Assembly (NCBI RefSeq): GCF_900104355.1
Contig: NZ_FNIY01000003.1
Span: forward strand, 124,001 to 188,000
Length of the DNA stretch: 64,000 nt
DNA from: Phyllobacterium sp. OV277
GTDB taxonomy: Bacteria; Pseudomonadota; Alphaproteobacteria; Rhizobiales; Rhizobiaceae
Direction of reading: 5' to 3'
The notes below the pieces were generated by a model, which was not told where the DNA came from, did not search any database, and saw only the letters and a program-made list of their open reading frames with translations. Positions 3,505 to 43,440 of the stretch are shown piece by piece. Made by a program: the position numbers and the translations under genes. The stretch's first letter is position 1, and each line of letters begins with the position of its first letter.

Positions 3505-3596
3505 GGAGAGGTGGCCGAGTGGTCGAAGGCGCTCCCCTGCTAAGGGAGTAGACCCGTTAAACGGTCTCGAGGGTTCGAATCCCTTCCTCTCCGCCA
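3505..3596 (+). tRNA. tRNA-Ser (anticodon GCU)
   Basis: The 92-base gene has the 7 bp acceptor stem GGAGAGG/CCTCTCC, then G and an encoded CCA. The anticodon stem CTCCC/GGGAG encloses loop CTGCTAA with anticodon GCT at 3539-3541. A long variable arm follows (TAGACCCGTTAAACGGTCTC), as expected for class II serine tRNA, then a T arm GAGGGTTCGAATCCCTT. It reads AGC/AGU codons. Its position downstream of a recombinase region makes it a plausible integration target. Confidence 0.97.
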
Positions 3597-40056: not shown

Positions 40057-40174
40057 CGTGGTTCGACGGGCTCACCATGAGGGAGAATGGTGGTCTGCAG
40101 GGACTGAAGTTCTACAGTGTTGGCGATTAGCGTTGCATCCTCACTCTCCCTCATGGTGAGCTTGTCGAACCACG
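40057..40174. repeat. Palindromic intergenic repeat, copy B (outer module only)
   Basis: Left arm CGTGGTTCGACGGGCTCACC ATGAGGGAGA and right arm from 40145 to 40174 (TCTCCCTCATGGTGAGCTTG TCGAACCACG) pair with two mismatches. The inner CCTCGGG module present in copies A and E is absent. It is followed by a short CGAACCCA tandem. Confidence 0.88.
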
Positions 40175-42597: not shown

Positions 42598-42718
42598 CAA
42601 AGACGGGGCTTTTTTCCCGTTTAGCCCTGCAATTCAACCAATTGTTGTTTGGAAATACGTGCGGAAATTGCTATATTGTCCTTGGAGTGGAGGCGAGCTT
42701 ACGCCCGCCCCCGTTTCC

Positions 42719-42808
42719 TCAGAGAGTAAAACGAACCCGGATGATCAGCTGCCAGCTACTCCGGGTTCTTTTTACTTCGAGGGTGATGCTGAGTGGTTTA
42801 CGCCACAT
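42719..42808 (-). CDS. 29-aa basic micro-protein, copy 1
   Basis: ATG 42808 (with a tandem ATG at 42811) follows GGAGGTGA at seven bases. The product is MWRKPLSITLEVKRTRSSWQ then LIIRVRFTL, a basic peptide with alternating strand-like residues. Copy 2 differs by three synonymous third-base changes and a few mild substitutions (Ile to Val, Ser-Ser to Thr-Gly, Thr-Leu to Asn-Phe at the end). That fits selection on protein. An internal 8-9 bp hairpin (GAACCCGG/CCGGGTTC) lies within the ORF. No family is recognised. Confidence 0.5.
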   Translation of the reverse strand: MWRKPLSITLEVKRTRSSWQLIIRVRFTL

Positions 42809-42812
42809 CATG

Positions 42813-42909
42813 TCACCTCCAGGTTTGAGAGCAAGGCCATTGCCATGGTCGGGGAGGCCTATCTCCTCGATACACCGGCTGGCTCGGTGCGTGCTGCTTC
42901 GCTCTCAAA
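42813..42909 (-). promoter_or_regulatory. Predicted structured 5' leader of micro-ORF copy 1
   Basis: On the minus strand UUUGAGAGC (42909-42901) pairs with GCUCUCAAA (42832-42824) to close a multibranch loop. Inside it are the hairpins CACCG-AGCCAGC-CGGUG, GAGG-AGAUAGG-CCUC and CCAU-GGCA-AUGG. The Shine-Dalgarno GGAGG comes directly after the closing stem. A CCUCC in the third hairpin could instead pair with that GGAGG. This could be a translation switch. The fold was made by eye. Confidence 0.45.
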
Positions 42910-43113
42910 TGCGAGATGACACAGTCTTGGCAAACTCTCCGGCGATGGCAACAAATGCAGGGTTGAAAGGCATCACGCGCTGCATTTCACAGTTGTCTCC
43001 GCATGCATTTTTGATGCTGAAAGCCAGTTGTTCGAGGAAATTCGGCTTGGAAAAGCGGGGAAAATGCCGTATCCTTCCGGAGTGGAGGCGGGCTTTCGCC
43101 CACCCCCTTTTCC

Positions 43114-43203
43114 TAGAAGTTAAATCGAACCCGGATCACCAGCTGCCAGCCGGTCCGGGTTCTTTTTACTTCCAGGGTGATGCTCAGTGGTTTACGCCAC
43201 ATC
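43114..43203 (-). CDS. 29-aa basic micro-protein, copy 2
   Basis: ATG 43203 (second of two tandem ATGs) after GGAGGTGA gives MWRKPLSITLEVKRTRTGWQ then LVIRVRFNF. It has the same length and start as copy 1 and ends in TAG instead of TGA. It may be translated from the same or a separate transcript. The peptide has no signal sequence and no recognised family. Confidence 0.5.
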
Positions 43204-43207
43204 ATGT

Positions 43208-43303
43208 CACCTCCAGGTTTGAGAGCAAGGCCATTGCCATGGTCGGGGAGGCCTATCTTCCCGATACACCGGCTGGCTCGGTGCGTGCTGCTTCGCTCTC
43301 AAA
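43208..43303 (-). promoter_or_regulatory. Predicted structured 5' leader of micro-ORF copy 2
   Basis: The closing stem is UUUGAGAGC (43303-43295) with GCUCUCAAA (43227-43219) and the same CACCG/CGGUG and CCAU/AUGG hairpins. The third hairpin is altered: UCGGG/CCCGA or GGGA/UCCC instead of GAGG/CCUC. CCUCC, complementary to the Shine-Dalgarno, is kept. Confidence 0.45.
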
Positions 43304-43440
43304 TGCGAGATGACCCAGTCTTGGCAAATTTCAGGCGAACGACAACGAATGCAGAGTTGAATATTCAACGGGTTCTACAGTTGAGAGTTGTTTTCTCATC
43401 CATCTTGATTGCGTCGCAATTGAACGTTTAATGCGTGACC

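Follow-up and report, generated by a model that had tools for sequence, protein, structure and literature searches.

Among type I toxin-antitoxin systems, hok/Sok, known from plasmid R1 and from chromosomal homologues, possesses an overlapping mok-like frame, and txpA/RatA, bsrG/SR4 and yonT/SR6 are Bacillus systems with transmembrane toxins. The alpha-r families of Rfam, which are alphaproteobacterial small RNAs, are multi-copy RNAs of rhizobia. Here, these systems are compared with a tandem pair of units of approximately 270 bp found in a 64,000-nt stretch (the window) of the 5.3-Mb genome of Phyllobacterium sp. OV277 (contig NZ_FNIY01000003.1, positions 124,001 to 188,000). The two units are flanked by an AMP nucleosidase-like gene and an endonuclease/exonuclease/phosphatase-like gene, named by eye from their translations. 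The explanation that we favour, with a probability of roughly 0.7, is that each unit is an antisense-regulated small-protein gene working like a type I toxin-antitoxin locus. Based on their sequences, the units appear to be an RNA-controlled pair of a kind absent from the databases searched.

As a rule, type I toxins are hydrophobic helices that span the membrane (PMC12390103). In the case of aapA3, the full-length messenger RNA (mRNA) is inert through a long-distance interaction between its 5' and 3' ends, and local hairpins masking the Shine-Dalgarno (SD) sequence and an antisense RNA are also present (PMC6733600). The aapA/IsoA system of Helicobacter pylori shares with the units a short peptide, an anti-SD sequestering the SD, SD-masking hairpins and an antisense RNA (PMC6733600). 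In contrast to aapA/IsoA, the units exhibit a predicted beta peptide and a large junction leader, and their predicted antisense RNA spans the 3' hairpin together with the 3' half of the open reading frame (ORF), without reaching the SD. The units match no Pfam or Rfam model, and the comparison with aapA/IsoA is one of descriptions. Like the units, hok/Sok comprises plasmid members and multi-copy chromosomal members, some of the chromosomal ones being inactivated, and its SD is sequestered in the full-length mRNA, which is activated by 3' processing (PMC6733600). However, the units match no hok/Sok model of Pfam or Rfam. With regard to txpA/RatA, bsrG/SR4 and yonT/SR6, the antitoxin RNAs are similar to the predicted one of the units in that they do not directly cover the ribosome site; TxpA/RatA and YonT/SR6 act through RNase III, and SR4 binds the 3' untranslated region (PMC12390103). 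The symE/SymR system likewise combines antisense control with a small protein other than a transmembrane helix (PMC1891008, PMC12390103), but SymE has an AbrB fold and is LexA-controlled (PMC1891008), the comparison being one of descriptions. None of the alpha-r families reached its gathering score in the window or in five plasmid stretches. Both the peptide, predicted to be beta rather than a transmembrane helix, and the elaborate leader are unusual for the type I class.

The database searches agree with the preliminary description of this DNA, which had been made from the sequence alone and knew of no named family. At the Rfam gathering score, one transfer RNA (tRNA) was the only match in the window and nothing was found in the five plasmid stretches; the units themselves reached no gathering score, their best weak match being RsaE, with 25.0 bits where 79 are needed. 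Pfam, NCBIfam, PHROGs and PADLOC returned 0 families at E values up to 10 for three peptides each, and the PDB sequences contained 0 matches to the peptide. In literature searches of open-licence papers, no rhizobial type I system stood out, and neither five stretches of the peptide nor a description of the family was found.

The preliminary description had placed two near-identical copies at 42684-42934 and 43080-43327, positions that proved right, with 91% identity over 267 nt in the alignment. Direct reading also recovers the 7-bp minus-strand stems at 42692-42709 and 43088-43105, with GUAA and GAAA loops, and both 29-codon ORFs retain GGAGGTGA and a tandem ATG (ATGATG, the 29 codons being counted from the second ATG). 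The two ORFs differ, as described, by three synonymous changes (CTC/CTG twice and CGT/CGA), to which five substitutions are added. The pattern is far beyond chance, with 10 copies in the own genome, matches in 19/19 congeners and a frame length kept in the genus. Two claims stood in part. The minus-strand polarity holds for the 3' hairpin and the leader and is reversed for the outer stem of the ORF hairpin. In the inner stem of that hairpin, the two window copies do differ by the wobble described. The proposal of a one-strand RNA-plus-peptide unit was supported as to selection, but the plus strand is gene-like as well. As this strand has a conserved promoter and an intrinsic terminator, the unit is better described as a sense/antisense pair. 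The features of both copies are as follows.

42949..42965, minus strand: copy 1, upstream motif CAACCCTGCATTTGTTG, part of a presumed mRNA promoter/operator
42806..42911, minus strand: copy 1, structured leader (helices P1-P4), SD and start codon (covariance model R1, 107.3 bits)
42813..42820, minus strand: copy 1, SD GGAGGTGA, predicted to be locked by two helices (fold; covariation in 117 copies)
42719..42808, minus strand: copy 1, 29-codon ORF MWRKPLSITLEVKRTRSSWQLIIRVRFTL, with an in-frame ATG directly upstream (peptide pattern also in other families of the order)
42689..42712, minus strand: copy 1, 3' hairpin with a 10-bp stem and a GUAA tetraloop
42681..42687, minus strand: copy 1, 3' tail CTCCAAG, anti-SD (covariation with the 5' half of the SD; swap test)
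42649..42677, plus strand: copy 1, antisense RNA promoter TTGGAA-N17-TATATT (promoter survey)
42684..42773, plus strand: copy 1, predicted antisense RNA (5' end placed from the -10 box, 3' end from the terminator)
42733..42773, plus strand: copy 1, antisense intrinsic terminator GAACCCGGA...TCCGGGTTC followed by T5, inside the second half of the ORF
43343..43359, minus strand: copy 2, upstream motif CAACTCTGCATTCGTTG, one mismatch to the pattern
43200..43305, minus strand: copy 2, structured leader, SD and start codon (R1 match, 112.7 bits)
43207..43214, minus strand: copy 2, SD GGAGGTGA
43113..43202, minus strand: copy 2, 29-codon ORF MWRKPLSITLEVKRTRTGWQLVIRVRFNF
43084..43107, minus strand: copy 2, 3' hairpin with a GAAA tetraloop
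43077..43082, minus strand: copy 2, 3' tail CTCCGG, anti-SD (fold; covariation)
43047..43075, plus strand: copy 2, antisense RNA promoter TTGGAA-N17-TATCCT
43080..43167, plus strand: copy 2, predicted antisense RNA, with its terminator at 43127-43167

The full-length mRNA is predicted to be locked because its SD covaries with two partners, the 3' tail and codons 8-9. The 5' half of the SD (N3GGAG) pairs with the tail (CTCCN3), and the 3' half (GGUGA) pairs with codons 8-9, which read UCACC in the window. This was analysed on 117 non-redundant copies, obtained from 223 candidates, of which 190 were parsed, after filtering for a frame of 24-34 residues, the W or RV/RI marks and a CTCC tail. As the set was selected for these features, its use was confined to hairpin counts and to covariation among neighbouring bases, and did not extend to the presence of the ORF or of CTCC. 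The three bases before GGAG pair with the three after CTCC in 104, 80 and 54 of the 117 copies, compared with 75.3, 60.6 and 36.1 in shuffled data (0/2000 shuffles for each position), whereas the fourth position, which served as a control, showed no covariation (20 vs 20.8). The combinations of SD and tail include ACTT/AAGA, AACC/GGAA, AACA/TGTA, ACAT/ATTT and ACAC/GTGA, and the non-pairing copies include some in which the script probably mistook a CTCC inside the hairpin for the tail. Bases 2-4 of GGUGA pair with codons 8-9 in 96, 103 and 104 of the 117 copies, compared with 88.5, 88.1 and 71.5 when shuffled (0/2000 each). Swapping the partners between copies weakened the pairing, with z values of -11.7 for the tail and -12.6 for codons 8-9 (n=117), compared with -0.7 and 0.4 for two control segment pairs. 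Smaller tests of the tail gave z values of -5.4 (70 copies), -3.9 (57 genus copies) and -2.5 (13 copies from plasmid or phage records, for which 43/5000 permutations were as good).

When the two window copies are cut immediately after the tail and folded, the double SD lock is part of the minimum-energy structure of each, and the pair probabilities in copy 1 are 0.94-1.0 for GGAGGUGA. When the 3' hairpin and the tail are removed, the first half of the SD is freed in the predicted fold and the second half is still paired. Viewed from the plus strand, the match between SD and tail amounts to an inverted SD copy, but pairing within the mRNA is the simplest reading. Covariation and fold together point to sequestration of the SD by the 3' end of the mRNA, a trait of the hok/Sok or aapA kind. 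The 3' hairpin exhibits a GNRA loop in 80/117 copies, and its deviations, with 184 GU cells vs 77 AC cells, are those of a minus-strand RNA.

The leader comprises four helices, P1-P4, arranged in a junction fold with conserved unpaired bases. The covariation score of this fold was 0.348 in an unfitted MAFFT alignment of 67 copies, compared with at most 0.172 when the pairs were slid, and 18/24 pairs changed on both sides. In the model-fitted alignment of 122 distinct sequences, the score was 0.496, compared with at most 0.129 slid and 0.225 shuffled, and both-side changes were observed in 24/24 pairs. P1 rests on these two alignments, the first duplex test of this helix having been discarded because its absolute energies were distorted. 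The GU and AC cells of the leader (62 vs 13, as a pair-table sum, the program behind the table itself favouring GU) indicate the minus strand. Alignment A1 was made without L051, L052 and L070, three genus copies with apparent leaders approximately 43-94 nt longer than the others, perhaps as a result of insertions.

Some covariation lies outside the four-helix fold. The P3 loop GGC[C/U] covaries with [G/A]GCC beside P4, and the P4 loop GGC[A/G] with [U/C]GCC of P1; columns 69-100 (CG 70 and UA 35 of 122) and 90-108 (AU 90 and GC 14) covary. A pseudoknot or competing folds would explain this. The score of the extra covariation was 0.216 vs 0.143 shuffled (0/500), but 0.166 for a slide of +2. 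The number of pair types was no higher than in the shuffles (462/500 as high), the number of pairs changed on both sides was hardly higher (128/500), and 2 of the 8 pairs are unpaired in 20 or 31 sequences.

Approximately 50-70 nt before the leader, the motif CAACCCTGC[GA]TT[TC][GC]TTG is found in 44/57 non-redundant genus copies and in only 3/56 copies from outside the genus. It is often followed, 17-18 nt further on, by ATAAAT-like bases, and the window copies have no clear -10 box. This motif is presumed to be the mRNA promoter or an operator. A regulon under this motif was considered. In the own genome, the motif has 15 matches with at most one mismatch, compared with 3 for a control; the three exact matches and 2 others lie at units, and a regulon is not apparent from these five.

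On the plus strand, the promoter TTGGAA-N15-19-TATATT is located beyond the tail. With hexamers taken from the same alignment, it is found in 113/131 copies at a minimum of 10/12 positions, compared with 1/131 when shuffled (counts on 131 copies are without L151, L064 and L114). The outer stem of the ORF hairpin is maintained in 810/819 Watson-Crick cells although the sequence of its arms varies. Its deviations, 1 GU vs 7 AC of 819 cells (3 vs 16 in the redundant set), suit the plus strand, and a run of at least four T is present behind the hairpin in 95/117 copies on the plus side vs 13/117 on the minus side. These characteristics identify the ORF hairpin, at the level of sequence, as the intrinsic terminator of a predicted plus-strand RNA. 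This RNA would be approximately 90 nt long and, by position, antisense to the 3' hairpin together with the 3' half of the ORF, in agreement with the antisense RNA with its own promoter that is found in type I systems. It contains a C-rich stretch in both window copies, which is largely paired in the predicted fold. Among 115 genus copies, the ORF is intact in 101, of which 100 have an antisense promoter (at least 9/12), and three more have a C-terminal extension and the promoter. The 11 remaining copies were scored as broken; 9 of them have the promoter, and two of these nine (L044 and L111) are near-intact variants missed by the regular expression. The single genus copy with an ORF and without the promoter has 8/12 matches.

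The predicted mRNA contains, as in type I systems, an ORF for a small protein with a ribosome binding site. The ORF is 28-30 codons long in 102/115 aligned genus copies. Across the order, the peptide follows the pattern M[WR]xxP[LFI]S[IV]TLxxK[RK]TR[TS]xWxxxxR[VI]xF, which persists in other families despite a quite different sequence of the hairpin arms. Pro5 is present in 98/109 alignable peptides of the non-redundant set. For the codon counts, 125/131 frames were kept, the criteria being Pro5 and no stop in 27 codons. In the set of 66 thus filtered for Pro5, this residue is encoded by four codons (31, 26, 7 and 2 of 66), and Leu10, present in 63/66, by five codons. The ratio of non-synonymous to synonymous changes (pN/pS) over codons 2-27 is 0.57 (uncorrected and near saturation), synonymous changes being more frequent. 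AlphaFold2 predicts two strands, at residues 6-15 and 20-28, with a predicted local distance difference test score of 81 and a predicted template modelling score of 0.31, which is only suggestive for a 30-residue peptide. The second strand has a beta moment of 0.88, compared with 0.33 when shuffled, and an alpha moment of 0.32 (113 peptides). A divergent branch (L309-L313, L315 and L317-L319, family f11) exhibits hairpin arms such as GCGGACCG/CGGTCCGC and the peptide MS..RWKLEV.L.K.ADRW..TVRI.F (general form MS..RW.LEV.L.K.ADRW..TVRI.F), with a tandem triple in L313.

The covariance-model and tblastn searches proposed in the preliminary description extended the family. Blastn matched the own genome and 19/19 congeners, that is 20/59 genomes and 1/40 genera, with no match in 39 relatives outside the genus. 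The leader model R1, applied with stricter filters than blastn, found 10 copies in the own genome and matched 16/297 sampled genomes of the order, the own genome included. In the sample of the class it matched 2/289 genomes, the own genome and G575 (34.6 bits), a match that was taken as chance because it has no profile match and no similar ORF. Among plasmid records, 34 were found by tblastn of the peptide (E up to 1) and 33 by blastn (1e-5). The tblastn records come from Sinorhizobium, Agrobacterium, Rhizobium, Labrenzia/Roseibium, Microvirga, Ancylobacter and others, and units occur on two Sinorhizobium meliloti records that bear the name psymA. The genera of named records in which a profile match was obtained include Rhizobium, Neorhizobium, Mesorhizobium, Methylobacterium, Aureimonas and Gellertiella. 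A scan with the leader pattern gave at least 118 stretches; among the matches listed, a profile match of at least 25 bits was obtained for 67 and no such match for 51. Taxa are given for 36 of these 51, mostly other taxa, with at least 7 Hyphomicrobiales.

The units recur as tandem pairs and triples. In 16/20 genus genomes, the own genome included, one to three copies lie at most 1.5 kb upstream of the phosphatase-like gene, and none in the other 4. The AMP nucleosidase-like gene is on the other side in 5 of those 16, the fetched flank being too short in the remainder. Further copies adjoin genes that resemble, by eye, glnA, recR, metN and the portal and terminase genes of gene transfer agents. 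In the own genome, a tandem pair (L040, 906-1586) lies between portal-like and terminase-like frames (by eye), apparently in a gene transfer agent cluster, with its mRNA strand opposite to these frames. Two units also lie between portal and terminase genes in L139 (MW462191.1, 43827-56059), which is filed as a freshwater bacteriophage; its neighbourhood contains a 'gene transfer agent' annotation, a LysE transporter and a penicillin-binding protein, and blastn shows four places in MW462191. A phage origin was rejected, as this record is probably a bacterial contig in view of that annotation, the bacterial-type genes and the similar setting of the own-genome pair. Among 10 annotated plasmid stretches, 5 contain repA, repC or parB (L141, L144, L145, L147 and L154), and L146 contains a DUF932 gene. 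Five further plasmid stretches carry no annotation there and are outside this count.

In the mechanism that we propose, both strands would be transcribed. The minus strand would give an mRNA comprising the junction leader, the SD, the frame of a basic peptide of 28-30 residues, the GNRA hairpin and the 3' tail, in which the 5' half of the SD would be held by the tail and the 3' half by codons 8-9. Once the tail was removed, half of the SD would become accessible and translation could follow. The plus strand would give an RNA of approximately 90 nt from its own promoter, ending at a terminator whose sequence also belongs to the second half of the ORF, and this RNA would pair with the mRNA and cause its degradation, probably by RNase III. 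On plasmids, the antisense RNA would decay, so that a toxic peptide would arrest or kill plasmid-free cells and thereby maintain the plasmid. Sequence and covariation support the leader fold, the conserved ORF, the two SD helices, the plus-strand promoter and terminator and the complementarity of the two RNAs; the remaining steps of this scheme, from transcription of either strand to plasmid maintenance, are inferred. A more elaborate version is doubtful: the leader might be a switching domain, with two competing folds or a pseudoknot, that gates the SD, and the peptide a new type of toxin, a basic beta-hairpin, released when a signal or tail trimming flips the leader. Should the proposed mechanism be true, an unannotated RNA-controlled peptide system would be spread over rhizobial chromosomes and plasmids, a beta-hairpin peptide would join a class made mostly of membrane helices, and one stretch of DNA would encode a peptide, an antisense terminator and an SD lock together. 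Because the covariation predicts which mutants would be informative, the mechanism lends itself to direct tests.

Several observations weigh against the type I interpretation. The hydrophobic transmembrane helix usual for type I toxins appears to be absent, judging from the beta-hairpin model, the charge and the moments: the peptide is predicted to be a basic amphipathic beta-hairpin, with a net charge of +3 to +8 (mean +5, 117 non-redundant peptides), and type I toxins are generally transmembrane helices. In the helix with codons 8-9, the first base is invariant on the SD side and the fifth pairs no better than shuffled (818/2000), and the shuffles ignore relatedness, for which the segment-pair and fourth-position controls stand in. 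No mRNA terminator was identified, and the predicted antisense RNA leaves the SD uncovered. The chromosomal units sit among housekeeping genes, so the role proposed on plasmids cannot apply to them, and rep, par and DUF932 genes were not found in 4/10 annotated plasmid stretches (L140, L143, L149 and L150). Finally, a toxin/antitoxin pair would give the lopsided decay described above, in which the ORF is lost and the antisense promoter kept, but few copies are behind it.

The conservation of the peptide (pN/pS 0.57), the presence of a unit upstream of the same gene in 16/20 genus genomes and the several copies per genus genome would also be expected of a conserved non-toxin small protein, such as a secreted peptide or a modulator of the membrane or the ribosome, whose production is restricted by RNA structure together with an antisense RNA. 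We consider this unlikely, as a double SD lock combined with an antisense RNA fits a product that is not to be made by default, and plasmid carriage and lopsided decay fit a toxin. The plus-strand RNA could instead be the main product, a trans-acting regulator with the C-rich stretch seen in both window copies, the ORF being secondary. Its promoter and terminator are conserved, and the promoter survives in 7 to 9 of the 11 broken copies. However, the ORF, the SD and the leader lie on the other strand, each conserved with its own covariation, and most of the C-rich stretch is base-paired in the predicted structure, which makes this a very improbable reading.

An elaborate junction with conserved unpaired bases, and with some covariation outside the nested fold, could also suggest a riboswitch-like leader with a leader peptide, attenuating a downstream gene. 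The neighbours differ among the sites inspected, however, and the controlled ORF is the small ORF itself, so that this explanation is even harder to sustain. As the units are multicopy, intergenic and in part palindromic, a repeat without gene function, resembling repetitive extragenic palindromes (REP) or miniature inverted-repeat transposable elements, was considered as well. The sites are stable across species, with orthologous neighbours, and the ORF and the RNA folds are under selection. This reading, hardly credible on these grounds, was dropped on the basis of the site survey and of the codon and covariation data.

Two further features of the window lie outside the units. A tRNA-Ser (gct) at 3505-3596 is the only RNA gene found in it by Rfam at the gathering score and by ARAGORN. 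At 40057-40174, an inverted repeat exhibits 33-nt arms that are 91% complementary and 52 nt apart, and is possibly a REP-like or transposon-derived palindrome.
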